Of a stretch of DNA of 64,000 nucleotides, positions 83-62,465 are shown piece after piece. The first letter of the stretch is position 1. Every line of letters starts with the position of its first letter. This DNA is from Stachybotrys elegans (Eukaryota; Ascomycota; Sordariomycetes; Hypocreales; Stachybotryaceae). The stretch covers positions 62,001 to 126,000 of the forward strand of contig JAGPNK010000017.1 of assembly GCA_020746835.1 (NCBI GenBank), given 5' to 3'. Both the position numbers and the translations under genes were made by a program. The notes beneath the pieces were generated by a model. The model ran no database searches and was not told the origin of the DNA. It saw nothing but the letters and a program-made list of their open reading frames with translations.

Positions 83-1993
83 TTACAACTCGTCGCTCCT
101 ACTTCGCTGCTGTGAGTACAACTCTAAAACAAGACAAAAGATCTCAGAGACAGGCGTGGACCGATCAAACCTGGCTATCCCAAGTATTCGACTTGTATCA
201 TCCACATCGAAGATGAGGAACGCATCCATGTTGCAACCTTGTGTCGGGTCCGATGGTAGTACATCTGCCTCGGGCTGCCAGCGGTCCCCAGGAATGCATT
301 GACGGTAGTACTGGATACAGCATTCCTTAATGGGCGATGAGGCTGTCTTTGCTCTGAGGAGCGGGCCCCGCGCAGTTGCAGTCCCGTTAGCTCCCAGGGT
401 AATGGTTTGCGCCGTATCAGTCACCTTATCCTTGACCCTGGCTTCGTGGAGGAAACTATCTCTCGGCACCCGGCGTTTTCCCCCTCCAGTGGCTGCCCAG
501 CACCAGGACGGCAGATGATGCAAGTCGTCCGCGGTACGATGGGCGGCCGTCACAGGTGTCCACAGTAGCTGACCTTCAAACCAGCTCTCCCATACTCCCA
601 AATCCGCCACAAAGCCAGTATTTCTTTCGCTCTCATACTCGCAGGCAATCCCACTGACAGCTATGATGCGGTCCGAAGGGAAAGTTAGGCTCTTTGACGT
701 GTAGACTTGCAGACATTTCAGCCACGGCAATGGCCTGTCGAAGTTCAGGTCTGTGTTTGTTCCACGCTCATTCCACTGTCGGAATCGGCACCCCCAGGAC
801 ACGCCCTTTGACGTGAAGAATACGACCCTTCGACCAATGGACCATTCTTGAAGTGCCCAGGCACGCTGCTTCAACGGTCCCTCGCTTCCAGCCTCACCAC
901 TTGTATCCAATGCTATGTTGTAGCTGCCAGCAGTGACACCTTCAGAATCGCGGTGCACGAGGCGGAAAGCAAGCGGGTCTGGTCTTTCGGCTTTGTGAAG
1001 CCCCTCGGTAGAGTCATTGGCACTTACAGCAGCAATGACGACTGTGGCCCGTTTACACACAAAGGCCATCTGCTTTGACTCAATCTCCCAGTCCTTCAGA
1101 TCGTCCTGGATGATGCAGAGAGAATCAATCCACAGGTAGCTGATGCCCAGTTGTTGCGTTAGAGCAGTAGCGTCGCGGAACGTTTTTGGCAATTTATTCC
1201 ATGGTATCGTGGTCAGGTGCTGCCTCAAGTTGTTCAGTGTGGTTTTCAGTGGACGTCTGTCCTCCGGACCCCAACAGTGGCTCAAGGCACAATAACTCCC
1301 TCTTAGTCCACGGGACTCGGCGAGTTTGACGGAGATGCGGCTGCCTTGCTTTCCGATAGCGAGAACCCGGGAAGGAAGTTCCACATTGGAATCTTCAGCA
1401 GCGGGATCTTCAGAAGCACCAAGCGTACAACTTTCATGCTGAGTTCGACAAGCAGATAGACATTGTAGAATGAAGGGTGCAGTGTCTGCAGTATCGCTGC
1501 GAAAGATTGGAGGATAGGTGACGTACATGTCTGCAGCAGGTGTTCCTAATGATAGCGAATGTTTCATATAGTTAGGTCGAATGGCTTGCAAGACACTATA
1601 CAGTAACGTACCTTCATCCGCCCAGATGGAAAACTCGAAACTACCAGCCGATTGCAAATAGACCAGATCCTCATCTCGGAAGGAGAAATTCATTTTGGAA
1701 AATGATTTCTCGTTACCCTGTATGGCGCTGGGAAACATACAAACACTCATCAGCAGGTACGTGCCTCTCTCGTCGAAGCCATTGCCGTAGGCTCGTCTCA
1801 GTCGTGTGTAAAGAATTTCGCAAAGCTTGCAATGTTTTGAGGACTCCCTGACTCTTTGCCGCTCCTCCAGCTCGCATTCCCGCGACCCGAGCTTGGTAGG
1901 TTCAAAATGCCGATGCTCCAGCTTGGCGAGACAGAGACGAAAGAAGTCGTTGCAAGTACCACAACCCCCTAGAAGTGACCCCATATTGTGCAT
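83..1993 (-). CDS. HET-domain (heterokaryon incompatibility) protein
   Basis: The protein carries a HET domain, a family known to trigger incompatibility cell death in fungi. The hallmark blocks are visible: YCALSHCWG, then the LPKTFRDA block, then LGISYLWIDSLCIIQDD, then the region around AVSAND. The whole stretch is open (636 codons), but a canonical intron at 1611-1546 (66 nt, GTACGT...TTAG) removes 22 codons in frame. Splicing restores the usual family sequence DEG-TPAADMY, so the mature protein is probably 614 residues. The N-terminus is Cys-rich (CGTC, CLAK, CKLCE), as in many HET proteins, and there is no N-terminal NACHT or other sensor domain. The start is the first ATG; a second ATG lies three codons in. 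It sits 0.9 kb from a gasdermin/protease pair, fitting a cell-death island. The HET call is firm; partner and trigger are unknown. Confidence 0.93.
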   Translation of the reverse strand: MHNMGSLLGGCGTCNDFFRLCLAKLEHRHFEPTKLGSRECELEERQRVRESSKHCKLCEILYTRLRRAYGNGFDERGTYLLMSVCMFPSAIQGNEKSFSKMNFSFRDEDLVYLQSAGSFEFSIWADEGTLLYSVLQAIRPNYMKHSLSLGTPAADMYVTYPPIFRSDTADTAPFILQCLSACRTQHESCTLGASEDPAAEDSNVELPSRVLAIGKQGSRISVKLAESRGLRGSYCALSHCWGPEDRRPLKTTLNNLRQHLTTIPWNKLPKTFRDATALTQQLGISYLWIDSLCIIQDDLKDWEIESKQMAFVCKRATVVIAAVSANDSTEGLHKAERPDPLAFRLVHRDSEGVTAGSYNIALDTSGEAGSEGPLKQRAWALQEWSIGRRVVFFTSKGVSWGCRFRQWNERGTNTDLNFDRPLPWLKCLQVYTSKSLTFPSDRIIAVSGIACEYESERNTGFVADLGVWESWFEGQLLWTPVTAAHRTADDLHHLPSWCWAATGGGKRRVPRDSFLHEARVKDKVTDTAQTITLGANGTATARGPLLRAKTASSPIKECCIQYYRQCIPGDRWQPEADVLPSDPTQGCNMDAFLIFDVDDTSRILGIARFDRSTPVSEIFCLVLELYSQQRSRSDEL

Positions 1994-2905
1994 GCCGGAT
2001 AGGTTTCAGTTTCAATGGTGTAAGACACGCTCGGGACAGAACCCAGCCTCGCTTTCGAAGGAAGAGGGGTATGCGCGGTTGCTTGGCCCACGAGCCATTT
2101 TCAATACGTATGCCAGGCCCACTACTACAGGAGGTAAAGCGAGGTGAAATCCGGTTGTGAATACCCCAAGAATGGAATGCTTCGTTGCTGAGGGACCCGA
2201 CAGGGCGACATGTGACATAATAACTTCTTATTACTCGCCTCACTTTGTACGATCCAACCAGGTAGTCCGATATTTTCATTTACTCTTTGTTTGTCTACAG
2301 AAAACTATGCATTCTGAACGATGCATCGTCATGGTGTTCTGGGGGCTTGCAGCCGCCTCCAATTACACCAAAAGCACCGACGACTGTGACGTGACCCTCA
2401 CCCTTCCTAGGCTAATCACTACCATCACACTTCCTCCTGTGAGTATCTTTGTTTATGAACCATTTATTCAAAGCGAAGTCCTTGATTCTTTGGTGATTAT
2501 AGGCAACATGGATGCAAAGAGAGAGAGGCTACAGCTCAAGCTACCAGTCTCCGCGACACCATCCAAGCGACCGGAGGGCGAAATATCATCATCTAACCAA
2601 ACAATATTACATGACATATATTTTTCGAATTCTGGACGGCGAGCTGTAAATGAACCTGCTATCAAGTGTATAGCACTGCTAGTCTTCTTCTGCCTATTAT
2701 ATTATATTTATTAATAATATTTATATTTTACCTTTGTCAAAAAGTCTATTAGACTGCTGCCTAACTTATATATTAGGCACTATTAGTAATAGGCTAAGTC
2801 CTCTATAGTCAAAATTCCCCTCCCCCCTCACTTACTATGAAGCCTTACCATGCCCTCAATCAGAGCTAGATCATCTCTCTCACTCGCCTCCTAACATCCC
2901 CACCA
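1994..2905. other. gene-less interval with a short TA-rich relic
   Basis: This stretch separates the HET gene from the gasdermin gene. An open frame at 2157-2714 on the plus strand has no recognisable domain and runs into TA-rich DNA, so I do not call it. Between about 2685 and 2815 the base composition changes abruptly to TA-rich with a small inverted repeat (GCCTAA...TTAGGC around 2760-2779). The style resembles the degraded block at the right end of the window. The last 100 bases are a pyrimidine-rich leader ahead of the gasdermin start codon. Confidence 0.6.
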
Positions 2906-3751
2906 ATGACAAAGACGTGGTTCCTGCCGCCCGATTTTAACTTCTTCCCCGAAGGCGAGATCCGCCTGGGAACGCTTCTCAAGTATCCCCATCGTCCGAC
3001 TCTTGCTCTTGCGTCTCTTGACGAGACGCCGCATATCCCGCTCCCCGAGGTCACGACAATCACAGAGACGGGCCACGCCCACTCGGCCGGCTCGGGCCGT
3101 TCCGCAGGTGCCGGCGTCTTTGCCAAGTTCATCGACCTTGCTTCTGCCTCTGGAAGCGCCGATGTTTCCAGCTACAAGAATCGCGAGTTTGGCGCCGTTG
3201 ACCATGAGGTGCGGCTCTTTTCTCGTGCTCTGGGCCCAGAGGCCCTCCGGGATATCGTTCAGCTGGATGCCATCAAGGAGTTTATCAACGGCGGACCTTT
3301 CGGGCGCTTCCGGAAGCGGCCCGTCTATCTCGTCTCCGGCCTGCGAGTGGCAAAAGACTCGTTCTCCGTGACCGACACGACGGGGTCGGCAGCTTCACTG
3401 GCAGCTGAGGCGTCAGCTTCAGTCGTGGCTGCGCCGCTTGAAGCTGGCGGCGGCGTCTCGACTACTAACGAGCGGCACGAGTTGCACAGCTACAACACGG
3501 CCCCTGGCGTGGTGTTTGCCTACCGGTTGCACGTTATCCGGCCCAAGTCCAATGGCAGCGCTGAATTAGACTTGTTTTCAGACACAGCTGCCTTTTACAC
3601 AGGCGAGAAGGAGGATGAAGACGATCAAGACCAAGAGATGGAGCTTGCTGATGTAACTGGTGCATCTATCAAGGTGATCAAGGGCGTTAAATGCGCCGTG
3701 GAGGAGTACAGTCTTGGGGATGAGGCTATTGTCATCTTCAAGAGCAAGTAG
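2906..3751 (+). CDS. fungal gasdermin-like pore-forming protein (HET-Q1/RCD-1 family)
   Basis: An intronless gene for 281 residues. It matches what I know of fungal gasdermin-like proteins: an N-terminal WFLPPDFNFFPEGEIRLGT block, a PTLALAS block, TGHAHSAGSGRSAG (55-68), FAKFIDLASASGSADVSSYK (72-91), FGAVDHEVRLFS, KRPVYLVSGLRVAKDSFSVTD (from 138) and GVVFAYRLHVIR (201-212). No signal peptide or classical membrane helix is present, as expected for a soluble pre-pore protein. An acidic linker at 233-246 (EKEDEDDQDQEMEL) separates the pore-forming part from a C-terminal piece of about 35 residues. In Podospora HET-Q1 a C-terminal piece of about 5 kDa is cut off by the HET-Q2 subtilase to start killing. 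The convergent neighbour here, 208 bp away, is a subtilase, so this is probably the executioner of that pair. The family call rests on motif recall, not on a search. Confidence 0.85.
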   Translation: MTKTWFLPPDFNFFPEGEIRLGTLLKYPHRPTLALASLDETPHIPLPEVTTITETGHAHSAGSGRSAGAGVFAKFIDLASASGSADVSSYKNREFGAVDHEVRLFSRALGPEALRDIVQLDAIKEFINGGPFGRFRKRPVYLVSGLRVAKDSFSVTDTTGSAASLAAEASASVVAAPLEAGGGVSTTNERHELHSYNTAPGVVFAYRLHVIRPKSNGSAELDLFSDTAAFYTGEKEDEDDQDQEMELADVTGASIKVIKGVKCAVEEYSLGDEAIVIFKSK

Positions 3752-3959
3752 ATGGCCTGCTGGACCGACAGGAAGCATGTCACATTAATAGGTACATCTT
3801 TTCCATCTCTCATCTGGCTTTTGTACAACGTCAAGTTCCAGCGCTTACATGGGGGGTTATCGACATCTTCATCTGCGTCCTCCAGCACCCAAAAGCTATT
3901 TTACCACTACCAGCTTGCCATCGCTGGCATCGGCAGAGGCAGCAGTCATGCCATTTTCC
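3752..3959. other. shared 3' intergenic region of the convergent gasdermin/protease pair
   Basis: Only 208 bp separate the two stop codons, so the 3' untranslated regions probably meet or overlap. I see no open frame of interest here. The tail-to-tail spacing is compact compared with the 0.9 kb between the gasdermin and the HET gene. Confidence 0.55.
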
Positions 3960-6743
3960 CTACATATATCTGTCCACGTCCCATAGCAAATGAGAAATAG
4001 CATGGAATTTGGCCTCGTTCGGGTAGCTGACTCCCCAGAAATGGACCGGGTTTATAAAGAACCGACCATCCGACGACTTCGTTGCCATCCCCCGAAGCAG
4101 TGCCTGCATACCCCGTGAGCAATGTGCCCGTCGCAAAGCCTGCAGTGTTTTGCTATCGCAGGACGAAGCAAAAAGCTGGGGTAGCGCGGCGATGTATGCC
4201 AGCATTGTGGCGGCCATACCAGCTGTCACAGCTGTCGCAACGGATGACCCTGGCCGGCACACGCCGCGATACTCCCTTTCAAACTCGGCAGCGATATCAG
4301 GGGGGATACCATCGCCAAAGGTTCCTAGGATATTAGCCCCGTCATTGGGACGCTGAGAGTTGAACTCGAGAAAGGTGCCGTAGCGGTTCGTCGCGTAGAT
4401 GGAGATGACCTCTGGGTGTCGAGCTGGGAATGTCTCTGCGTGATCAGCCGAGTTTCCAGCACTGGCGAGGAAGATTGCGCCGCCTTCGCGTGAGGATACC
4501 TCGTGGATGGCTTGTGATATTCCTTGATGCGTCTTTGGGAATCCGAATGACATGGAAATGATATCAGCTCCTTCTCTGCCTGCCCATTGTATAGCCTATT
4601 TACGCGGGTCAGAGTGAAAGCTATTATAGTATCATGTCGAGTGTCGGTACCTCGGCGATCTTATCCTGACACTTTGCCAGGTCCCTGGTGTTTCTCGCAA
4701 CTCGGGCAACCATGATGGTTACGAATGGAGTCGACTCGAATGGAGTCGACTCTGCAACCAGTCTCGCCATCAGACTCCCATGACCAAAGTCATCCCTCTT
4801 GGAGGACGAATCCAGAGTTAGAAAGTCTCGAAAATATTCGACTTGCTGCAAACGATCGTCTCCGTATTCTTCATCCTGGTAAAAGGGCATCTCGCAGTTG
4901 ACACCCGTGTCTAATATGGCAACTCGAACAGGAGTCGTGATTCCAAGCTCGCTCCATATACGGTCTACATGCGCGCTCATGCCTTTGAGATTTTGCATCC
5001 AGTTGCTGGGAGTGGTCAAGCCGCTATGGAAATTGACCTCCCTGGTGTTCGTCTGCGCATGAGGAGTCAGGCCAACTGTCGCGGTGGCTCTTGCGTTTGC
5101 CATCTTGTTGATGTATGTCGTCCCCGCCGAGTTGCTGTTGAAACCCTTGACAGCCAGCCATGCCAAGGGCCTGACTACTCTGTTGTAGAGATTCTTCCTC
5201 CTCATAGAAAAGTCGTTCTGATTCTCCGAGAGCTGCGGTTTCCTGCGGCCATAGTCGAGGTCATTTGCGTTCTGGATGAAGTTCCCGCCATCGAGGCAAT
5301 ATTCCACAGCGTCAATAAAGTACCTCATGTGGGAGAAGCCGTCCCACTTGGACTTGCGAAGTGTCTGGAGCAAATTCATTGCCGTCGTGTGATCAGAATT
5401 GGCCTGCGAGTTGAGGTCCTTGAAGCGCCGCGTCGGGAATGGCCTGGCAAGTCCGATCTCGAGGAGAAGGATGCCGAGGGCGAAGACACGGGGGCAGCGG
5501 TGGTTGAGGGGTATTCTCAGATCGTGGATGAATTCTTGGACGTGGTCGCTGTGAGCGTCAAATGGGAACGATATAAACGCCTGTAGAGGCAACGCATCCT
5601 TGCACTCGCTGTTGGTGGTGGGCATGAACCAGATGGTTTCGCTGTTCCATTTTCTGCGCATCAATTCTGAGTCGTAAAACTGCCAATAGGTTCGTGCCAC
5701 CGAGTACGATAGCAGGATTCTGTCTCGGGGAGTCAGCCAGTAATGCCGTAGAATGCTGGCAAGGGATTCGCCCTGTCCAGCTGCTGGGATCAACTCCTGG
5801 GCTTCTGAGCGAGGAAGCTGATAGAGGCCATATTCGGGCTTGAACTCGAACCGGATGCGGGCGAACATCTTCTCCTCAACCAGAGCGCATATTCGGCCAT
5901 GATCCAGTATCTCCGAGTCCGTGGTGGCGCCCAAATCGCTTAGTGGTCTCACATCTGTCAGTTGGGTCTCGGTAACGCGATCAAAGGGTATCTCACACAG
6001 TTAACCGAAGCTCCTGCCAATGGGACATGTCCAACGATGATACAAGGATGCCAAAGGAAGCGCCGTCGGAATCCCCCTCTAAACAGAGCCTAGTAGGATG
6101 CCATGACGGATCGCCGTTGGGTGTTCCGTGGAAGTTTGGAAGACACTGGCAGTGCTTCTGAAGAACTTCAAAGAGTGCCCGGTTATGCTTGGAATGGTCA
6201 TGCTGGGCGATGCTTTGAAGACTCGGTGGAGGACCCTGGGCCTCTTCAGCACCAGTTGGGGCGAGGCTCTCATGAAGCTTGCGGCAGCCCTGTCTGAAGC
6301 TATCGATGTCCTCCTTAGTCCCTGGGCGAGAAAAGTATTCGGAGATGGACCGCTTCATGCTGGATCCGGTTGTCTTGGCTAAGAAGTCGTTACACTGGGC
6401 AACAATGAAACCTGGCAGGATGTGCATCTTTTCCGGCCACTGGGTTGCGAAACAGACTTTTTAGCATCAAGTAGAAGCGCCAAACTGTTCGACATACCAG
6501 GCATATTGTCACTAGGTCCTTGAGCAAGTCACAGCAGAGTTGGTTGACATCTGGCTCGATCCAGTACCGTGGGAGTGACTCGATGTATGGACAGACGATC
6601 TGCAGCCTCGTGGCAATTTCGCCTGCCTGGCAGAGCACGTCGCCGGATAGCTTCTTTCGCTTGCTGCGGCAGATGTCGAGGAGATGGCGTGTAAACTGCT
6701 TGGCCCATGATGCCAACATGTACGCCGCATCGTCATCAGCCAT
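3960..6743 (-). CDS. multidomain subtilisin-like serine protease (HET-Q2-like, DUF7580-S8)
   Basis: Modelled as four exons: 6743-6498, 6439-5997, 5947-4651 and 4595-3960, giving 873 residues. Residues 1-90 are helical. Residues about 90-460 resemble the fungal DUF7580 region (ALFEVLQKHCQC..., LSYSVARTYWQFYD, PRVFALGILLLEIGLARPF). Residues about 570-800 are a peptidase S8 domain: Asp576 in VAILDTGVN, His619 in DDFGHGSLMA, oxyanion Asn710 in LASAGNSAD and Ser780 in PGSSVATAV. Splicing at 4650-4596 creates AIQWAGREGADIISMSFGF, a typical subtilase strand. There is no signal peptide, so it is intracellular. The intron at 5996-5948 has a GAG acceptor; an alternative ending nine bases later (CTAAG) keeps the frame. 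A likely 5'UTR intron (GTGAGC...ACCAG) lies just upstream of the start. The convergent gasdermin gene suggests this protease activates it by cleavage. Confidence 0.85.
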
Positions 6744-6976
6744 TTCAAGCTCTGGTATCCAGTGACATGTAGAAGAAACAGGCTGAGGGACTTGAGAAAA
6801 GAAGCTGGGGTGCTCACATGGCAGCTGAAGTGGTTTCCCCGCCCAGTCAGCGCCGAGGACGAATAGAAGTGTTGCAATAAGCGCCGGGTGGATGCGCCTG
6901 GTCTCTGTCCAAGCCCGAGGCATATTCTCATATTATCTTCCGTCAGGTCCTATGCAAGCTTCATTGGCGTGGCATC
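6744..6976. promoter_or_regulatory. divergent promoter between protease and zinc-finger gene
   Basis: The protease start (6743, minus) and the zinc-finger gene start (6977, plus) lie 233 bp apart, head to head, so their promoters must overlap. A GTGAGC...TACCAG intron at about 6818-6756 on the minus strand would be in the protease 5' leader: joining it to any upstream frame either meets a stop or shifts the MADDD frame. This layout would allow co-regulation of the two genes, but nothing in the sequence proves it. Confidence 0.4.
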
Positions 6977-9900
6977 GTGGACATGTCAAGTCGAGCATCA
7001 TCGCCAGACTCGGATCGAGCTGCAGCCTCGATCCTTGAACTCACGCAACAGTGTATCTCACTGCTCGAGGGCTGTTCCGCTTCACACCAGAATGGAGACA
7101 ACTTTACCATGGAAACGAGGCTGGCTGATCTGCGTCTCTGGGCCGACGGTGTCGGGGCAACATCCAAAGGGAGTGCCTCGCTAGACTGGAGATTCAGGAG
7201 CAGGCCTGACGACCTATTGCTAGTAAAGACGATTCTGATTATGCTGGCCGACTTTGTAGAGCACTACTCAACTCTGCTGCAAGAGGGCCAGCCGACTGAT
7301 GACGGCGTCGAACGAATTGATTCAACCATTGAGAACCTGGCATTGATTGGTGTGGCAATCAGACGCACTGGAAAGGGATCACGGCGTCGGAGGACCGACA
7401 ACCGATTTGATCCGCGGGACTATGAAGACTTGAGACGACACCTGGAATGTATCATTCTTCTTCGACCCAGCAAGGCAGGCCTTCAGAAAGAACTCAGCCT
7501 TGTGGGCTTGACCACAGTCCAGAAGCGGCTGATCGAAGCAAACCTCAAGAGACGGCATCGCTTCGTGATTGCCCAGAAGCGTTCCCGCAAACCAAAAGAC
7601 GACACATCACAACGGAACGTGAGCGACCATCCTTCACAGGGAGATGCATCATTGAAAGAGGAGGGTCAAGTTGTATCTCAAACAAGCAAGTCCCCAAGAA
7701 TCAGATTGAAACAAGGGCAGCATCAACGAGCACCGCCCACTAGAGGGGGTCTCACAGCGGCTTCGACGGCTGAGGGAACTCTTCAGTATGGTGAAAAGAG
7801 GAGATACATCCCTGGAGCTGCGAGAACGCAGATCACGGCTCTCGCAGCAGATGCCGAGTTCCCCAGGCCACCCCCAAATCCAGAGGGCCGTCGTATCGGG
7901 AAATGCCCTTGTTGTTGTCAGTCAATTCTCGTCGAGGATATGATGGATCCTGGCAAATGGAGGTATGAAGAATACCACTCGCTTGGCCCCTTCTGTCGAT
8001 TAACAAATACTAGGCAACATATTATCGAGGACTTGTTGCCATATACCTGCGTCATAGAAGAGTGTCCAGCACAAACTCCCCTTTTTAGCACCCGAAAGGA
8101 ATGGGAGGCTCACGTCGAAGCTGAACACGGGGTTCAATGGCGCTGCCCCCTATGCGAGGAGAACGACCTGATATTCGAGACCGAGGAGGGAATCACGCAT
8201 CATCTTGAAGCAGAGCACCAAGACGATGTGAGGGAGCTCACTTTGGAAACTCTATTGCCATGGTCTGAAATACGGCGTATGGGAATCGCTTCTTGTCCAT
8301 TATGCTCCTCATTTGGAAGAGAAGACTCCCCAGAGATCATCCACCATGTGCTGAGACACGTTTACGAGTTTTCTCTGCGAGCTCTTCCCTGGACCAAACC
8401 ATTTAAGCACCCTTCTGCAAAGCCCACCGGAACTTATTCTCTACCAAAGAATAAAGGTGCTGCAGAAAGATTGGTAGAATGGATAGACAAGGCACACTGC
8501 GGTACTGCCATGCATCTCCACCTCTCCACACTAGAAATCGACAACGAGGAGATGGAAGCACCAGAAACTGGAGATGATACGGGCTACGTTCCAGACGACG
8601 AATACTTTGACGATGAGTCGGTGGGCAAGTCTTCGAGGCCCCAAGGGCCACAAAGTAAGCCCTCCAGAGACTCTAATTCCGTGCGCCTCCCATCCTCTTC
8701 CGAGGCCCTGGACCCCATCTCCGAACAGCCAACAGCTTCAGGGACGTCCAGAGACGAACTTGACGAAGATGACGATCGAGGATCGGGAAATCGGATTCCC
8801 GGGTCACATGACCTGCTCGACCTCCTTAAGAGGAATCAATCCGGCTTGGAGGAGTCATCGAACGTTATCCACTCCCCTGTGCTTCCTAAACCTCCTGAGT
8901 TTGATAACACCTCGGTTGTAAGTTCGCTTGCAAGTTCTGGACTCAGTCATGGGACGTGGTCAGGAATGAGTGCGCCAAAATCGGAGTCAGGGGCCAATAC
9001 TCACCCCCCGGAGAATGCTGCTGAAAACAGAAGAAGACGTCGCATAGAGCGACGTCTGCAATCCGGCTCAGAGAAGTCATTAAACGCTATCCACTCCCCT
9101 GGGGTTCCTGAACTTCCTGAGTTTACTGACACCTCGGCTGGAAGTTCTGAATCCAGTCGTGGGACGTGGTCAGGAATGAGTGAGACAAAACCGGAGTCAG
9201 AGGCCAATACTCACCCGCCGGAGAATGCCGCTGACAACAGAAGAAGACGTCGCATAGAGCGACGTCGGCAATTCGAGCTCGAAGCTGCCAGCGAGAGTGA
9301 CGCTGTCGGCATCTTCGAACGGGAGGACGACCGTAATACTAACAGCTCTCGCCCCCCGGAAGATCTTACCGCCAGTCAACATGCCTACAGCCCATCCAGG
9401 AAGAGCAAGGGATATTCCCGAGAAGGAAGCGTTGATACCCCAATAATGGGCAGCAGCTTCAGTAATCTGGGTGGTATGAACTCGTGATGTATTCCGCTGG
9501 CTGGCTTTTCTAATTCGTCTGATAGATTCGGAAGATGATTCGCAAGAACGACTAGCTGCTGAACTAGCCAAGCTCGCCACCGAAGAGGCTAAGGAGTCAG
9601 CCAGCATAACGGCGGAAGCGGCCAAGCCGTTCCCGGAAGGACAAGACAACGTGAATCTCGCTGGGGAAGAACAACACGCTACTGGAATAGTAAAACTGGG
9701 AACTCGGAGGCCTAGGCGAGCTAAGCGTGAAGCTGCTGAAGCGGGCCAGGATGACAACGAATTTCAGCGCACTTGGAGGGCTGCTCCTGAGGCTAAAGAT
9801 ACTCCTACAGATGAAGACTCCATAGCCGACGAGCACGTACCCACCAGCAATAGGGGCATGAAGCTCAACGAAGCAAAGAAGCTCAAGAGAGAGGCTCTGG

Positions 9901-10271
9901 CCAAGCTCGCCGCCGAAGAGGCCGAGGAGTCAGCCCGCAAGACGGCGGAAGCGGCCAAGCTGTTTTTGGGAGGACAAGACAACGTGAATCTCGCTGGGGA
10001 AGAACAAGACGCTGCTGAAATAGCAGAACGGGAAACTCGGAGAGCTGCCCGGAGGGCTGCCCGGAGAGCCGAGCGTGAAGCTGCTGAAGCGGACCAGGAT
10101 GACGACGAAGCTCGGCGCGCTCGGCGCGCTTGGAGGGCTGCCTGGAGAGCCGAGCGTGAAGCTGCTGAAGCGGACCAGGATGACAACGAAGCTCAGCGCG
10201 CTCGGGGCGCTCGGAGAGCTGCCCGGAGAGCCGAGCGTGAAGCAGCTGGTGCGAGTCAAGATGCGCCATAG
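6977..10271 (+). CDS. C2H2 zinc-finger protein with repeat-rich C-terminus
   Basis: Two exons, 6977-9473 and 9526-10271, join across a 52-nt intron (GTATGA, CTAAT branch, GATAG) to give 1080 residues. The first 120 residues match the helical N-terminus common in fungal 'acuF-like' C2H2 proteins. Residues about 294-475 hold Cys/His clusters: KCPCCCQSI, CVIEECPAQ...HVEAEH, WRCPLCEEND...HHLEAEH and ASCPLCSSFG...HHVLRHV. From about 620 the protein is repetitive: a 74-residue unit occurs twice (GTWSGMS..., RRRRRIERR), a 111-residue unit twice (GQDNVNLAGEEQ), and a 27-residue Arg/Ala/Glu unit at the end. The tail is probably a long charged helix or coiled coil. Such proteins often lie in HET/NLR gene islands. 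A role with the neighbouring protease is possible but unproven. Confidence 0.8.
8847..9275 (+). repeat. 222-bp tandem duplication inside the zinc-finger gene
   Basis: Two in-frame copies, offset by 222 bp (74 codons), each carry the segments NxIHSP, GTWSGMS, NTHPPENAA and RRRRRIERR. The copies have diverged by several percent, so the duplication is not brand new. The arginine clusters could be nuclear-localisation-like. Confidence 0.75.
9565..10035 (+). repeat. 333-bp spaced in-frame duplication
   Basis: The block encoding LAKLA(T/A)EEA followed by GQDNVNLAGEEQ occurs at about 9565-9700 and again 333 bp later at about 9898-10035. Over 40 nearly identical bases surround the GTGAATCTCGCTGGGGAAGAACA core (9651 and 9984). 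The offset is 111 codons, so the reading frame is kept. Confidence 0.75.
10063..10271 (+). repeat. 81-bp tandem minisatellite, 27-residue unit
   Basis: The start GGAGAGCCGAGCGTGAAG recurs at 10063, 10144 and 10225, an exact 81-bp period. The unit encodes an Arg/Ala/Glu-rich helix of the type RAEREAAEADQDD. A degenerate ancestral copy is visible near 9715. The last copy is cut short by the stop codon. Confidence 0.85.
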
Positions 10272-10926: not shown

Positions 10927-11542
10927 TGGCGGCCTTGTTGTTCTTGGTGGAGGATTCTTGACTATCCTTGCGAGTGCAATCACGGTGTGTTGGCCAAGAA
11001 TGCAATCCGTTGATCCCCGCTATCCGTGCCACTCGCATAGGACGAACCTTGTGTCCAAGGAGCCTATGAGAGACGAAGAACCGGGAGGGGCTAGCCAATT
11101 TGGCGCTGAGGCTCTAGTCAGCCTATCACAAGTGTATGACCGGCTGGATAGCAGAAAGAGGAAAGGGAAGGGGATAGTAAGACGTAGAGAACGAAAAATA
11201 GATGGAAACAAAAACATAAAAATAAATAAAAATAGAGCAAAACAGAACAAGTAAATAGGAAGAAAACAGACCAAGAATGCAGAGTGACGCGGAGGAGGAG
11301 CAACAAGAAATGCAAATAAACAAGGTGAGAAGGCTAGCAACCAAAACAGTCCTATTAGTGTAGGGTAGAGATTTATGCTTCAACCATGGGTTCGAGAAAA
11401 GAGGGACCAAAAACAATCACCTTACTCGTGAGTCACCACACCAATCCTGTTCGGGATTGTCATGCAATATCCCTCACAACGCACGCCATAGAGTAGTCTT
11501 ATCTTTTTCCACTCTTTTGTCTCGCTGCTTCTTGAGATCAAA

Positions 11543-12550
11543 ATGGAGTCAGCTTACGATCGACAGCAGGTTCAACAATACTTTGAGTATGTCGGATTAC
11601 CGCAGCATCTTCGCGGGGAACCGCCTTCCTTGGTCCTCTTGAAAGCGCTCCACATCCATACATTATCCACCCTCCCATATGAGAACCTCTCTATTCACTA
11701 CAATCCTGCCCACCAAATTGAACTCGACCCTCAACGCCTATTCCAAAAGATGGTTGTTGAGGCCCGAGGAACGGGTGGTTTCTGTATGGAGATTGCCATC
11801 TTGTATAATCACGTCCTGCGCGCAGTAGGCTTTGACGCCTACACTGCAGGAGTTCGAACTCGGGGTAGGCTCGATGGAGTTCCGCATGGAGAGTACCCTG
11901 GTTGGTAAGACAAGTGCTCCCAGACACAGTACCGCAAATCCGAGCTTACGGATCCCAGGAACCATATTATTAATATCGTCACATTTCCCGACGGAAGCAA
12001 GTATCATGTGGATGTTGCCTTCGGCGGCGATGGTGCCACAATGCCAATGCCACTCATTGATGGGCTTATACATCCAAACTTAGGAACTCAACATATCCGG
12101 CTCGTGCGAGATTGGGTACCTCGTCAAGTGCATCGAAGCGAAGAGACGAAGCTATGGATCTATCAGTACCGTAATCGGGAAGATGCAGAATGGAACTCCT
12201 ACTACTCCTTTCCAGGGATCGAGTTCATGGATCATGACTGGGGTGTCGTTAATTGGTGGATCAACACGAACCCTGATAGCCACCAGAGAAAGAACGCCTT
12301 GGTGATCAAGTTCCTGAGGAGACGTAAGGAAATAGAGCATGGGGCGCAAGCCAGTGAAGACTACGAGATCTACGGCAAGCGCATGCTGGTCAATGAGGTT
12401 TTTAAGGAGAATCTAGGAGGAAAGACACAGGTGATTGCTATATGCAAGAGCGAGAATGAACGGTGTAGCGCACTGGAACAGTACTTTGGGATTCGTCTCT
12501 CTGAAGATGAGAAGGAAGGCATCCGGGGTTACATAACAGAATTAGTTTAG
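11543..12550 (+). CDS. arylamine N-acetyltransferase
   Basis: Two exons, 11543-11904 and 11959-12550, are joined across a 54-nt intron (GTAAGA, CTTAC branch, CCCAG); the product has 317 residues. It is an acetyl-CoA-dependent arylamine N-acetyltransferase. The catalytic triad is visible as Cys81 in ARGTGGFCME, His123 in GWNHIINIV (restored by splicing) and Asp139 in YHVDVAFG. Fungal relatives acetylate aromatic amines, and in Fusarium one (FDB2/NAT1) detoxifies plant benzoxazolinone products; that substrate here is only a possibility. The protein is cytosolic, with no signal peptide. The gene stands alone between two copies of a 78-bp repeat, so it could have arrived or moved as a unit. Confidence 0.92.
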
Positions 12551-29736: not shown

Positions 29737-32700
29737 ATGGTTGCGGCCATGAAGCTCCGCGGCCATGCATCATTCGCCTTGCTTTGGGTTGGTGCTTGGG
29801 CATTACCACCGTCATACGCGCCAGGAGAGCCTCGATGTCCACCCAAGCAAAGGACGATAGAGCTCCAAGTAGCAGAGGTGGTGTATGATGTTCCAGTGAT
29901 TCTGAGCGCCTTGGTGGCCAAAAACACTGTGATCACCCTTGACACCAGCTTGACTCTCAGCATTACAGATGCTCCTCGTATGCTGGTAACAGAATTCAAC
30001 TCATTGCGAACATCAACAACCACATTGACAAGGTATGCATGGAACCTTCTTGCATAATCACCCTGACATGGAGCAGGGTTCACACAAAATCCCTGCCGCC
30101 GGATGATGCCCACAAACTCTTCTGCATGTGTCCGGAAAGAGCTTCGCAGATATACTCCAAACAGGAGACTGGAAGCCCTGCAAATACGTACGATGTATTT
30201 CATCCAGTGGAAGAACTATTGAATGGCTTCTTCCACAACTGTACAATTCGAGAAATGCAGTCTGGCTACGACACTCATGACTGTTCGGGGGTTGGGGAGT
30301 ATGCTACTGGTATTCCTGACCAGACTTACGATGGAGTATCAACGAGTCCGACGATCACCACCAGGCCAGATCTGGGGTCTATGCCATGCAATCTGGCTGG
30401 CGGCTGCTGGGTAACAGAGCTTCATTCGCCAGAGATTTTGTCTGTGGCATCACCCCCAGAAATCGTTAAAATCACACACGTGTTCTACGAAGAGAAGGTG
30501 TCGATAACACATCACAAGAGTCTGGGTGTGCCAAGTCATGTAACTGGCACACAAGAATGGAAAGCATCGGCTCAGCACGAGAACTCCACAACATCACATG
30601 CTTCGGATTCTGTGAGCAGACCCAACAGAACATGGACAGTCGAGCAACCTCAAAAACATGGCATTACAAGCGAGTGGGACTCAGCCGTGCCTTTTACAAT
30701 AATCGGAATTCTGGAAGAACCCGCAATCACTGGCAATCTCCCATACACTCAACGAAGCCCACTCGTGGATGTGTCCAGCAGGCCGACATTGGAATCGCAT
30801 GGGATCACAACCACTGCAAGAGCTCACACCTCATCCTTCGAAGCGACGACATTCCTCTCCGGAAATGCGAGTTGGACATTTTCTGGTAGCACTGAGAGAG
30901 ATCCAACGGGCGGTATCGTCAAACAGACTACAATACAGCAAGTTATCTCCTCCAACAGCAACTCTGGTCTGCTGTCTGCTTCACCCACGACGGGTTTATC
31001 CACCGTGTCAGGGTATTCAGTCACAACGAGTGGCTATGCAATTACGGAGAGCGCTGTCTCTTATGTTGGTTCGTCTGATTCTATCAGGCCAGATGTCTTG
31101 ACCAGGGAGACAATGTATTCGACTACCTCGCAGAGGCTGAGAATTTCCTCCAGCCAGTCATCCAGCATCACTATGATGCCCATTAACACGCAGGACATGT
31201 CGACTTCAAGCCCCTCTCCTCCCTCTATAACAAGTTCCACCGAACCATTTAGCGAGGAAAATGTGCAAACGAGTTCACTATCACCGACATCAGCCGCTGA
31301 GACTAATGGTGACCCGACCTCAGACAAGAACACCTCTGACATCTCTTCTACGACTCAGCACCCCAGCTCCCTCCACAATACAAGCACCTATCCAGAGGCC
31401 ATCGAATCGTACCATGAGAGCTCAGAAGCCCCCAGTAACTCATCAAGCACTATCCGGAGCGACACAGGCGACACGTACTCGGCATCACTCACGTTGGATC
31501 AGCCATCAAGCGAAGGCTTCGAGAACATAGACACAACCACAGACGCACCAACGCTTTCAACAACAGGTATTTGGACAGCCTGGGAGACAAACTGGTCGCT
31601 TTCAAACAAAGAGAGCAGTGCAGCACCATCCGAAGGAAGCAGCCCAATATTTGTATCATCAAGCTTGATGCTCGGTCAAACCGAGACAGTGTCAATCTCT
31701 GCAACTGCTCAAAGGCCAAGCACCACCTCCGTCTCAACACTGAGTTTCCCTGCCACCGCACAAAGTGAGGCATCTACGGATTCATCAGATACTTTCAATA
31801 GCCTTGACACGAGCTACTTATTTGTCCCTACTCTCACCAGCAGCGAAACGTCGTACTCGAGCCCGGAGACGGGAGAGTCAGGAGCTTCAGGTTCATCGGG
31901 ATATTCCGAAACAGCCTCGCTTAGTACCTTTCAATTAGAATCAACAGTGAATATAAATCCCGGGAACGATACGACTGCCTCGGTAGGATCTATCACCACA
32001 ACGCCATCATCCTTAGACTTAGGCACCACAACGTCAAAAATTTTGCTGGAGGTCAGCGCATCAACTACCACCGACAGTCCTCGAAGCTCATCTTCAATGA
32101 CTGGAGAAAATGGATCCTATTCTTCATCAAGTGTTGCTAGTGCCGCAGACTCTTCTATGAGAACATCCGATACGGTTGAGGCGTTTACTTCTACCTCTTC
32201 ATCAGCGGGTTCAAGTCCTGCAAATTCAAGCGTCAATTCATTTTCAAGCTATACAGACTCAATATCCGCCTCTAAAACTACAATGGAAGCACCATCTTCG
32301 CCACAAATGGAATCTTCCAGCACTACTTGCTGTGGAACTACTGATGATACGAGCGGCTCATCTCAGGAATGGAGTGGTACATTGAGCACACCAAGCACAG
32401 AATCATCATCCTCGTACACGATGTCTCTATCCAGCCATGAGGATCTAGCCATCACGTCATCAATGATCAACATGTCTTTCACAACGCCCTCAGTCACAAG
32501 CATACCGAGTTCGTCGGATGTTACCAGTGACATCACAACAATCAGCACTCAACCAGAAGGCGCAGAAGACTCTACATCAGCCTCAAGGGAAGAAGAATCG
32601 GCGGTATCGAATACTATTCTATCCTCAACCTTTACTTCTACGACTTCTCTCTTTTCAACTACCGAGGTTAATTCTCGAGATCCGTTGACGCCTCAGAGCT

Positions 32701-35700
32701 TGACCATAATGACGGATTTTTCAACAACCCTTTTGAGTGCTTCTTCGCAGCAACTGAGCAGTCCGGAGCTCAGCTCAGTGCCAGAAGGTCCAGAGGGCAC
32801 GGAAATTCACTCGTCGGAATCAACACCAAACTTTACTCAGTCATCAGATGTCCAGTCAACTAATGACATCATTGAGTCGTTCACAAGCCTATTGGCCGAA
32901 AATTCTACCTTCCTAAATACTGTCACATCCAACAGCACCGAGATCAGCCAGCTCAGCGCCTTTTACACGCACTCTACTTACGATGATCAATCAATCATCA
33001 GTTTGACTAGTATCACAGACAGTGCTTCCCCATCCCCTATTTCGGAGACGTCGATGCCCTATATTTCCGCCAACTCAACGGCAGCATCTCCCACAATCAG
33101 CAATACAGATATTTCTGCTGTCGTCTCAGAAACACACTCGGATGATGTAGGAACCACGAGCATCACACCATCTCCCGATTCAACGACGCAGGAGATTGCT
33201 CCTTCCGATGGGACTTCGCAAAAGACCAGCACAGCATCTCTCCAGTCGACATCGCCATCAGAGTCTACGGACCATGCCGTCACTACTGATTATTCGACTT
33301 TCGACACTGCAATCAATACTGGTGGGGCACAAGATAACAGCACCTCATCAGAGGCCATGTCACTGGCTACAATATCGACATCGACGATGGAATTGGGCAC
33401 AACCACCGACTGGTCTAGTGGCAGTGCTGCATGGGTGTCAGTAACCGGCCAGAGCTCGCCAGTGGTGAATTCAGAGGGAGCATTAACCAGTACCGCTTCC
33501 GACATCTCATCTGCTGTCACCGACATTAGCACAGGTAGTGACAGTGCTGTAGCTGACATAACCACAGAAGAAAGCTCCGTGATAGACACCTCGGAATCAT
33601 TTAGCATTTCTATGGTCACAACGGCCGTGGTTACAGAATTGGATACTTTGCGAACTAGTTCAAAGTTCACAATCATCCCATCTGAACAAACGTCCATGGG
33701 CACTTTACAGGAAACATCCATAATGGCAACCGAATCCTCTCCTTTGACAAGCTCGATATTGCCCACCCTCTCAACCTCTATCATGACAGTGGTTCCTTCA
33801 TCATCTACTCTTCTCAGTTCAATGGGTATACCTACACCAGATAGCACAACGATTCCAAAAACCGAGACATTCCAGACCCCGAGTGTCTCCGATACCGCCA
33901 CGAGCTTATCTTGGACTGTCAGCAATGCTTCTTTTGACACAGTACTCAGTACATGCAGTAGCCCTGTGAGCGAAAGCCAATCATCGACAATGGGCGAGGT
34001 CATTAGCCCATCAACAATTGCTTCAAGCGAAGATCCTACCAGCTACACCAGAGGCTCGAGCACGTTGGCCAACATGCTGTCGGAGGACACCACCGTTCCG
34101 ACAGTAACCCTCTCCGTAGATCCTCCATATGCATCCTCAAACATGGAATCGATATTGTATTCAACCGAGCTGTCAAACCCCAATTCTTCTAGGGAATCAA
34201 TGGTTCCGGCAAGTGAAACAGCCAGCCTCATCTCAACATCTTCTCTCACTACGAAACCATGGCCTGCTATCACTGAGACTGTCAACCAAACCTTCCAGAG
34301 TTTCTCGTCACCCTCATCATTAGCAACATTTCTATCCGATGACCTCATCTCAAATACAACCTTTCAGATATCTTCGACTGCCACTGGAGAGGCAACCGCG
34401 TTACCTGTGTCAAGCACAACCTCACTTGCGGGTATTTCGTCTTCCTTTATGGTATCCATTTTCACCACCGAATCTCCAGAATATTCATCAATTTCGCCTA
34501 ATTCATCGGAGACCTCAACATTATTGACTTCTCTTGGCGCTATTCCCACATCAGACTCTTCGTCAAACACATCCAGTGCCATATCAGATTCTCTCGTCTC
34601 CGCCTCTGCATCTTATACCTCGTCGTCCTTTTCGGAAAATTTTCTTTTGTCATCTTCCGCATCTAACACGAGCATCGGTATCTCCTTGAGTTTTTCAGCA
34701 TCAAGTCCAATTACGCCTATGTCAAGCGACAGTGTGTCCACAATCAACTCTTCCGCAGTTTATTATCTCACCTCGTCTTTAGCCTCCTCTACCTCCAATA
34801 GCTCTACTATTTACTATTCTATCAGCAGCCCACAAAGCACGGTTCCTGCTACAACATTTCCTATGTCTGAAAACCTTACTGGTCAGTCGAGCATCTTTAC
34901 CGGGTACTTTGAACAGACTACCACACTCTCCCCTCCCATAACAGCTATCTCTAGCCCTTTACTATCTGTTTCGTCCATTTCCTCTGTTTCGTCTATTTCG
35001 TCTATTCCTTCTTCTGCCTCTTCTATCTCTATTCTCTCTATGGTTTTAACTACTTCCACAACTTCCCTTTTCTTGTCTCCTTCTTCAACCATATCAACAT
35101 TGATAGTCGTATCCACTTCTACAACTTCTACAGTCTCTATACCACCTACTACCCCTACCGCTTCTACAATCCCTACTGCTTCTACTGCTTCAACTGCTTC
35201 AACTCCTTTCACTACCATGACTACCTCGACCACTTCGATTACGACTACTTCAATAACCTCAACAACCTCGATTCACTTAACAACCTCAATAACCTTAACC
35301 AGTTCTATGTCCCTTGGCTTATTCCTATCTTCTCTCTCTACTATCTCTAACACTCCAATGACTTCACCCTCATCGATTTCATCTACCTTACCAATCTCGT
35401 CTACTTTCTTCAATCAATCCACCTTATCTATATTGTCAAACTCACCTACCTCTATGCCTGTTACCATGTCTATACCCTCTACCTTTTCTATATCTTCTTT
35501 AGATACTACCCGTATTCTCCCAAGATCATCTACCTCATCTATCTCGTCTGTCTTATCTACATTATCCACTTTATCTACATCTACATCTACATCTACCCTT
35601 ATATACACCTCTTCTACCATTTCGAGTCGTACCACAACATCATCTGCAACCAGCTTCGCCGCATTGACATCGACATTGTCGTCTTCTCGCACTTCACCAA

Positions 35701-36236
35701 CTACCAGCTCAATAACAGCGTCATCGGCTTCCTCCTGTCTCACAGCTCCAACAGCCACTGCCACGGTCTGCTATTCTGGCACGGCTCTCCCTGGCAGATG
35801 CTCTCAGCTTGCCGGTCAGGCTGGGTTGTCGTTAGTTCCAATTATTGCCGGCTGCCTGACTGACCTGGGACCATACGCAACCACAGTGTCTAGCTGCCTC
35901 ACTGTTGTTGTGACCACTCTCACAACAGGAAACAGCATCCGCGATTGCATCGCAGCCGGCCTTCGAGGTCAATGCATCACACGACTCCCATCCGCGTGTG
36001 CAAACCTCGAGCAAGCAGTCTCCGCAGTTGATGTTACAGTCCAGGCGGGTCTCTGCAGCATAGCATTGGGACCTTTCGCAACTGGTACGGCCGCTCTCTG
36101 CCTCACAGCTTCCGCATTGGCTGGAAGTACAGGCTTGAATGTCATAAATTGTCTGGAAAATGCTCTTGGTCTCACTCCGGGCAGTACACGGGCAACTGGT
36201 ACTCGAGTATGCAGTGCAGCAACCAGAACAGGTTAA
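29737..36236 (+). CDS. giant Ser/Thr-rich secreted wall or adhesin-like protein
   Basis: Two exons, 29737-30032 and 30077-36236, are joined across a short 44-nt intron (GTATGC, CTGAC branch, AGCAG); the product is about 2151 residues. An N-terminal hydrophobic stretch (MKLRGHASFALLWVGAWALP) is a likely signal peptide, with the start perhaps at the second ATG (29749). Residues up to about 250 have mixed composition with a few Cys. Residues about 250-1990 are mostly Ser, Thr and small residues, so heavily O-mannosylated and extended. The last 150 residues are Cys-rich and contain two related segments (CLTDLGPYATTVSSCLT and CSIALGPFATGTAALCLT). No GPI signal is evident. An extracellular adhesive or mucin-like role is inferred from composition only. 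Confidence 0.75.
34740..35640 (+). repeat. G-poor pyrimidine-rich low-complexity tract
   Basis: In this 0.9-kb part of the Ser/Thr-rich gene the coding strand is almost free of G and dominated by TCT/ACT/ACC/ATC triplets, with short arrays such as (TCTACA)n at about 35570-35600. It is still in frame. The contrast with the codon use further upstream in the same repeat region is clear by eye. Confidence 0.6.
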
Positions 36237-61540: not shown

Positions 61541-62465
61541 TGGGTTTGGGAACTGAAGGTGAAGAGAATGAAGATTGCGCTTCCACTGTCAAGTCCGACT
61601 GATATTTGACTGAAATGTCGGTGCGGACCAGCCAACACTCAATTTAGGACCAGCCTGCTCTTATGATGAGGAAAAGAGTGTGCAGTGTGGGGTGTAAGCA
61701 GTAGAGAGCAAATAAACAGTAGAGGTGGTGCCTAGTGCCCCGGCAACCAATGCAGTCGTAAACAGTAGAGAAGAAGCCTACTCTTATACTTGAAAGCCAG
61801 CCTGGCATTTCTACTCTCAAGACGCCCTCGAATTATGGACCCGGCAAGAGCGCGCGTTGTACTAACTAAGCATCGTGTGGCCTAGTTTTAATAGAGTAGG
61901 TGCGTGCAGTGTAGAAAAAGGAACAATAGTATATATGAACAATAGTAGCCTTGCTACCGATAGAACCAAAGAACAGAGTCAAACAATAGAGGGATCATCA
62001 GTCTACTAACATCACCAATTAGCCAGAGCCAGAGAACAATAAGGGGTTACGGTAGCGGCAGCAAAAGTGGCAGCAAAAGCGTGTGTAGTCAGGGGGACCT
62101 GCGGTTAGCAGACTGGCCTCGATGTGTGTACATACCGTTCGTCGGCCTATTCATGTAGCCCTTACGTGGGTTCTGATGAGGCGAAGGTGACGTACCGAGT
62201 TCTTTCTATATACAAAATTGAAGAAAAAGAATATGGCTTTTGAAATATAGGGTAGTGCCAATGGTAGGTTCCTGTCATTGATCACTCTATCTCAGCACAA
62301 CGATGTGGCTTCTCTTGGCACAACGATCAGCCATACTTATGTCTAAAAACTCATCCTACCCTTTCGTACAAAGCCCAGAATATAAACTTTCCGCTCGTCA
62401 AAGATTCTCAATGAACATCGCGGCAGAACAGATCTTCCGTGGGAAACCGGGAAAATCTATAAATA

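Follow-up and report, generated by a model that had tools for sequence, protein, structure and literature searches.

A gasdermin-like gene and a DUF7580-bearing subtilase gene form a probable two-gene cell-death switch in Stachybotrys elegans

Introduction

Do two neighbouring genes of the fungus Stachybotrys elegans, one encoding a gasdermin-like protein and the other a subtilisin-like (S8) protease, form a cell-death switch, and would such a switch serve allorecognition? The genes lie within a 64,000-nucleotide window, the whole stretch of DNA analysed here, which spans positions 62001–126000 of contig C9 (754,140 bases) in a genome of 43.4 Mb and 61 contigs. An earlier reading of the letters alone, hereafter the original prediction, had proposed a self-contained cell-death or allorecognition module. 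Our analysis argues strongly that the two genes constitute a cell-death switch of a kind already known in fungi, the gasdermin/HET-Q2-like one; the pair is an additional example of an already reported cluster type. The grounds are the presence of both genes, their predicted folds, the catalytic residues, the linkage found elsewhere and the repeated pairing in the same genome.

The original paper on the clustering of fungal gasdermin genes with protease genes is reportedly Clave et al. 2022. Reviews describe about 80% of fungal gasdermin genes as clustered with proteases, in line with the original prediction, and about 60–63% with S8 proteases (PMC10197012, PMC10989679). The Podospora gasdermin HET-Q1 comprises 278 amino acids (aa) and the S8 protease HET-Q2 388 aa, and HET-Q2 has been suggested to cut HET-Q1 at F238, taking off 40 residues (PMC10989679). 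The genes het-Q1 and het-Q2 occupy one locus as alternatives, being idiomorphs (PMC12881547), and have been used to illustrate how rearrangement can give rise to a constitutively active sensor (PMC10197012). RCD-1, by comparison, is active when two alleles meet and needs no cleavage (PMC12881547).

Results

The gasdermin-like gene consists of one uninterrupted frame, the open reading frame (ORF) translating into 281 aa (Table 1). A first-round protein search found 77 homologues, the closest other gasdermin at 77% identity, and a profile built from 29 homologues (alignment A1) matched RCD-1-1 (8jyz_A) with an expectation value (E) of 8.2e-4. Gasdermins led the structural matches of the predicted model, with Neurospora RCD-1 on top (Foldseek, VIA) and the bacterial gasdermins 8sl0 and 9a84 also among them, and the model shows the gasdermin N-terminal fold. 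We call the protein a gasdermin homologue because profile and fold agree, the single-sequence PDB search having returned no gasdermin and the domain searches no match. By its modelled fold, its profile relation to RCD-1 and its short tail it is a fungal gasdermin, for which pore activity is predicted.

Residue F230 is Phe in 28 of the 29 aligned sequences (with a single Thr) and in 35 of 36 homologues linked to a protease gene (with a single gap). Judged by position and conservation, it would be the equivalent of HET-Q1 F238, HET-Q1 itself not being part of the alignment. The 51 residues that follow carry a net charge of −8 (K+R minus D+E), compared with −7 to −18 across the 29 aligned sequences. 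Relative to most aligned homologues, the deposited S. elegans protein P0001 lacks ten residues; a 30-base false intron, introduced in error by the annotation, is the probable cause.

The protease gene contains three introns on the minus strand (6497–6440, 5996–5948 and 4650–4596). Introns 1 and 3 were derived from a splice scan, and for the end of intron 2 we followed two proteins, the deposited P0078 (873 aa) and its homologue P0079; an alternative intron 2 acceptor yielding an 870-aa model was dropped on these grounds. The protein matched Peptidase S8 with an E of 7.8e-21, and its closest other homologue showed 67% identity. Conservation was assessed in alignment A2, comprising 37 of 120 listed proteins picked mainly for full length. 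By sequence, all four catalytic residues that define a Q2-like (Q2L) protease are intact, and the gene lies 208 base pairs (bp; 3752–3959) from the fungal gasdermin (fGSDM) gene, where Q2L proteases are sought within 10 kb.

The gasdermin homologue, the subtilase with four catalytic positions and their tail-to-tail arrangement at 208 bp, as given in the original prediction, were thus all recovered. It had named loss of the S8 triad in a corrected gene model as a reason to abandon it; D576, H619, N710 and S780 are all retained in the 873-aa model.

Table 1 Features of the gasdermin/protease pair and the adjoining gene (window positions)
Feature	Position	Strand	Remarks
Gasdermin-like gene	2906..3751	+	281 aa, no intron; ORF, homologues, RCD-1 profile match, Foldseek/VIA matches
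Predicted pore-forming part, residues 1-230	2906..3595	+	structural matches cover model residues 1-228
F230 codon, candidate P1 cleavage residue	3593..3595	+	putative counterpart of HET-Q1 F238
Acidic 51-residue C-terminal tail, predicted inhibitory	3596..3748	+	net charge -8
HET-Q2-like protease gene	3960..6743	-	873 aa; exons 6743-6498, 6439-5997, 5947-4651, 4595-3960
Peptidase S8 domain, residues 570-796	4194..4929	-	
Catalytic D576 codon	4909..4911	-	D in 37/37 homologues
Catalytic H619 codon	4780..4782	-	H in 35/37 homologues
Oxyanion N710 codon	4452..4454	-	N in 36/37 homologues
Catalytic S780 codon	4242..4244	-	S in 36/37 homologues
DUF7580 (PF24476), residues 163-491	5164..6199	-	Pfam E 1.5e-26; possible degenerate kinase-like regulatory module
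HET-domain gene (PF06985)	83-2005	-	E 1.1e-27; just upstream of gasdermin

To place the pair within its genome, we searched the assembly with the window gasdermin and two paralogues and applied profile checks to the fetched pieces, which gave nine gasdermin ORFs, located on C9 (the window pair), C7, C21, C34, C6, C60, C23, C4 and C3. At eight of the nine loci the nearest S8 match was 304 to 2240 bases away (all below 5 kb); for 67 merged S8 loci and a genome of 43.4 Mb, the chance of an S8 match within range is 0.017 per gene and the tail probability 6e-14. Matching of coordinates placed DUF7580 and S8 side by side at six loci (C9, C7, C21, C34, C6 and C60), and a gasdermin ORF was present at all six, convergent with the protease gene in five cases and divergent on C60. 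The gasdermins on C34, C6 and C60 were first seen beside the protease and were later matched by the whole-genome search with a paralogue. The C60 gasdermin (L010:2868-3880, minus strand) is composed of two overlapping frames, pointing to an intron or a frame break, the other eight being single frames.

As a control, we considered the 61 of 67 merged S8 loci without an adjacent DUF7580 and inspected pieces centred on 20 of them (L011–L030). A gasdermin ORF was present in one piece, L013, which is the C23 locus; an ORF in L027 was dismissed as a gasdermin (E 0.77 with the A1 profile). The C4 locus (L031), also among the 61, was inspected later since the protein search had already flagged its gasdermin; the upstream part of its partner S8 gene appears DUF7580-like by eye, yet is absent from the PF24476 matches. 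On C23 the gasdermin is flanked by a secreted-looking subtilase (S8 match at 986 bases), on which piece L013 was centred, and by an S8 gene with ankyrin-like repeats, recognised by eye (1847 bases), which L013 includes in part and which is taken as the gasdermin's partner. By coordinates, none of the five CHAT protease matches in the genome lies near any of the nine gasdermins. The contig of the C3 gasdermin (L032:1776-2666, minus strand) has no CHAT match, and a HET-domain gene adjoins this gasdermin (L032:3032-4999; C3:892878-893333).

Linkage was likewise found in other fungi, in counts that rest on the best 120 of 128 and the best 120 of 182 matches. Contigs were equated by their length. 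Of the 77 gasdermins found in the first round, at least 26 are on the contig of a listed protease homologue; among these 26, locus tags are near in 11 cases (9 within two numbers), distant in 2 and not judged in 13. Near tags are exemplified by Fusarium floridanum CEP51_000028/000029 and Neonectria ditissima AK830_g7030/7031, and near-tag homologous pairs also occur in Orbilia and Xylaria. After a second search, at least 40 of 142 gasdermins and at least 41 of 120 proteases shared a contig among the matches listed. A shared contig by itself is no proof of adjacency, and pairs are missed both beyond the best matches listed and on the short metagenome contigs from which many of the sequences come. 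We compared the distance matrices of the partners for 36 of the 40 linked gasdermins, leaving out P0003 (fragment partner), P0049 and P0060 (distant tags) and P0220 (two candidate partners), and obtained a correlation of r 0.84, a value reached in 0 of 5000 permutations.

The original prediction was silent on the approximately 560 residues ahead of the S8 domain, which include a helical region and DUF7580. A domain search of P0078 at E up to 1 revealed no ANK, TPR, WD40 or NB domain. When the whole protease model was compared with a viral fold library, subtilases made up most of the top matches and protein kinases most of the later ones. A kinase name appeared in 30 of 50 rows, at weak E values between 5e-4 and 0.2; aligned ranges were not displayed, and we presume that the kinase matches fall on the DUF7580 part of the model. 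Both PDB fold lists for the same model (50 rows shown each) were filled by subtilases with zero kinases, and a DUF7580-only profile of 11 sequences retrieved zero kinases among PDB sequences. HRD and DFG are kinase motifs; neither was recognisable in DUF7580 by eye, no alignment to kinases being used. A degenerate kinase-like fold of DUF7580 is likely but unproven.

A 2025 review mentions the fusion of predicted kinase-like domains to proteases that control gasdermins (PMC12881547), and the idea of a kinase-like regulator on a gasdermin-linked protease is hence already in the literature and not new. Our literature search returned no paper naming DUF7580, and no statement of a link between DUF7580-S8 genes and gasdermins, subscription papers lying mostly outside its coverage. 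A tentative proposal is that gasdermin-activating subtilases are held off by DUF7580, a fungal domain still uncharacterised, acting as a degenerate kinase-like latch or sensor; we consider this possible and rather more doubtful than not. If true, DUF7580 would supply the annotation that many Q2L proteins lack, some 1500 of these being described and only about a third having an annotated architecture (PMC10197012).

Discussion

In the mechanism that we propose, the gasdermin would be made as an inactive precursor, and the N-terminal region of the subtilase, with its helical part and the possibly kinase-like DUF7580, would hold the enzyme inactive. Once a signal is sensed there, the S8 domain would cut the gasdermin near F230 and thereby remove the acidic tail of about 51 residues, and the freed part would insert β-hairpins into the plasma membrane and assemble into a ring pore, resulting in cell death. 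Cleavage, cut site, pore formation, autoinhibition and trigger are what we infer for the pair. Since both genes reside in one genome, the protease, if it cuts its neighbour, cannot be constitutively active; it must normally be off, and the N-terminal region is therefore the obvious candidate for a latch or sensor.

Several observations weigh against this cell-death reading. Of the family searches proposed in the original prediction, the 29-sequence profile found RCD-1, whereas the single-sequence PDB search with the 281-aa protein retrieved no gasdermin and Pfam, NCBIfam and PADLOC scans matched nothing. The structure prediction, with gasdermin folds as its top matches, is of low confidence (mean predicted local distance difference test score, pLDDT, of 56.6, the tail mostly below 50). 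Autoinhibition by DUF7580 is proposed from the architecture of the protease. In the genome, the C34 (E 0.011) and C4 (E 0.005) gasdermins are weak in the single-protein search and rest on the profile, and the nearest S8 match of the C3 gasdermin is 13,251 bases away. The cross-species correlation could stem from species history alone, and only 15 of the 36 linked pairs have a nearest neighbour common to both partners. Within the genome, the distance correlation was r −0.41 for six pairs (674 of 720 permutations gave at least this value) and r −0.09 for seven pairs (3104 of 5040), a test that is probably uninformative owing to saturation, the paralogue gasdermins differing by 0.75–0.86, and to missing columns in some proteases.

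A different function would apply if the pair were an active allorecognition (het) locus at which strains differ and hyphal fusion triggers death. The related HET-Q1/HET-Q2 pair behaves in this way (PMC10989679), and a HET-domain gene lies next door. This neighbour carries little weight because HET genes are so common in the genome (at least 150 matches, 150 of 309 candidates having been scored), and it may be a coincidence. Moreover, het-Q1 and het-Q2 are idiomorphs (PMC12881547), whereas S. elegans has both genes on one contig, 208 bp apart, and we regard an allorecognition locus as unlikely. A regulated defence-type death switch is likelier, because both genes coexist and the protease would need control. 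Of the module suggested in the original prediction, the cell-death part thus stands on fold, family, catalytic residues, linkage and repeated pairs, and the allorecognition part is unsupported, given the co-occurrence of both genes and the additional DUF7580 region.

The gasdermin might also be switched on without cleavage in the manner of RCD-1 (PMC12881547), its top structural match, with the neighbouring protease serving other substrates. The C3 paralogue, with no S8 match within 13 kb, fits such a mode, but the acidic tail behind a conserved Phe corresponds to that of HET-Q1 and the gasdermin–S8 pairing in the genome is strong; cleavage-free activation accordingly seems quite improbable. 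That the locus is a relic, with one or both genes inactive and a merely historical linkage, is very improbable indeed, as both frames are open, the introns are in frame, the four catalytic positions are kept and both proteins have close homologues. The regulated two-gene switch is hence the reading that we retain.

Compared with HET-Q1/HET-Q2 of Podospora anserina, the S. elegans pair likewise combines an S8 subtilase with a gasdermin whose C-terminal tail is short and whose size is similar (281 versus 278 aa). Its genes are neighbours in one genome rather than idiomorphs, and its 873-aa protease carries DUF7580, whereas HET-Q2, at 388 aa, is too short for an N-terminal part of about 560 residues. 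The arrangement resembles the Q2L clusters of other fungi, in which a gasdermin lies beside a multidomain S8 protease, though with DUF7580 and no ANK, TPR, WD40 or NB match at E up to 1. It shares the gasdermin fold with Neurospora crassa RCD-1 and would differ from it in the mode of activation, RCD-1 requiring the meeting of two alleles and no cleavage. The two-gene layout and the fold (8sl0, 9a84) recall bacterial gasdermin–protease defence pairs, which belong to another kingdom, and neither S. elegans protein matches PADLOC.

The locus adds a clean, intact member to the known gasdermin/protease set. The genome-wide results suggest that eight gasdermin–S8 pairs are maintained in a single fungal genome, six of them sharing the DUF7580 regulator. 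The tight link between DUF7580-S8 genes and gasdermins in this genome may be an addition to knowledge: such genes are a signpost to divergent gasdermins, which may escape a search with a single protein, and the domain could cover part of the two thirds of Q2L proteins left unannotated in PMC10197012. Two questions become testable, namely what activates these proteases and whether the loss of its regulatory region made HET-Q2 an incompatibility gene.

Other features of the window

Beyond the pair, an ORF of 868 codons from stop to stop (6881-9487, plus strand) contains Cys/His-rich zinc-finger-like stretches, seen by eye, and repeated Arg-rich segments, its Pfam matches being weak and below the cutoff. 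A tandem repeat with an 81-base unit occupies 10050-10248 (2.5 copies, 92% matches). An arylamine N-acetyltransferase gene (PF00797) at 11492-12550 (plus strand) has its frame broken by a stop at 11906-11908, perhaps within an intron. Finally, the region of strong GC skew at 32-36 kb includes part of a Ser/Thr-rich ORF of 2097 codons (29943-36236, plus strand) with a Cys-containing end and no Pfam match, whose product resembles a mucin-like protein, either secreted or of the cell wall.
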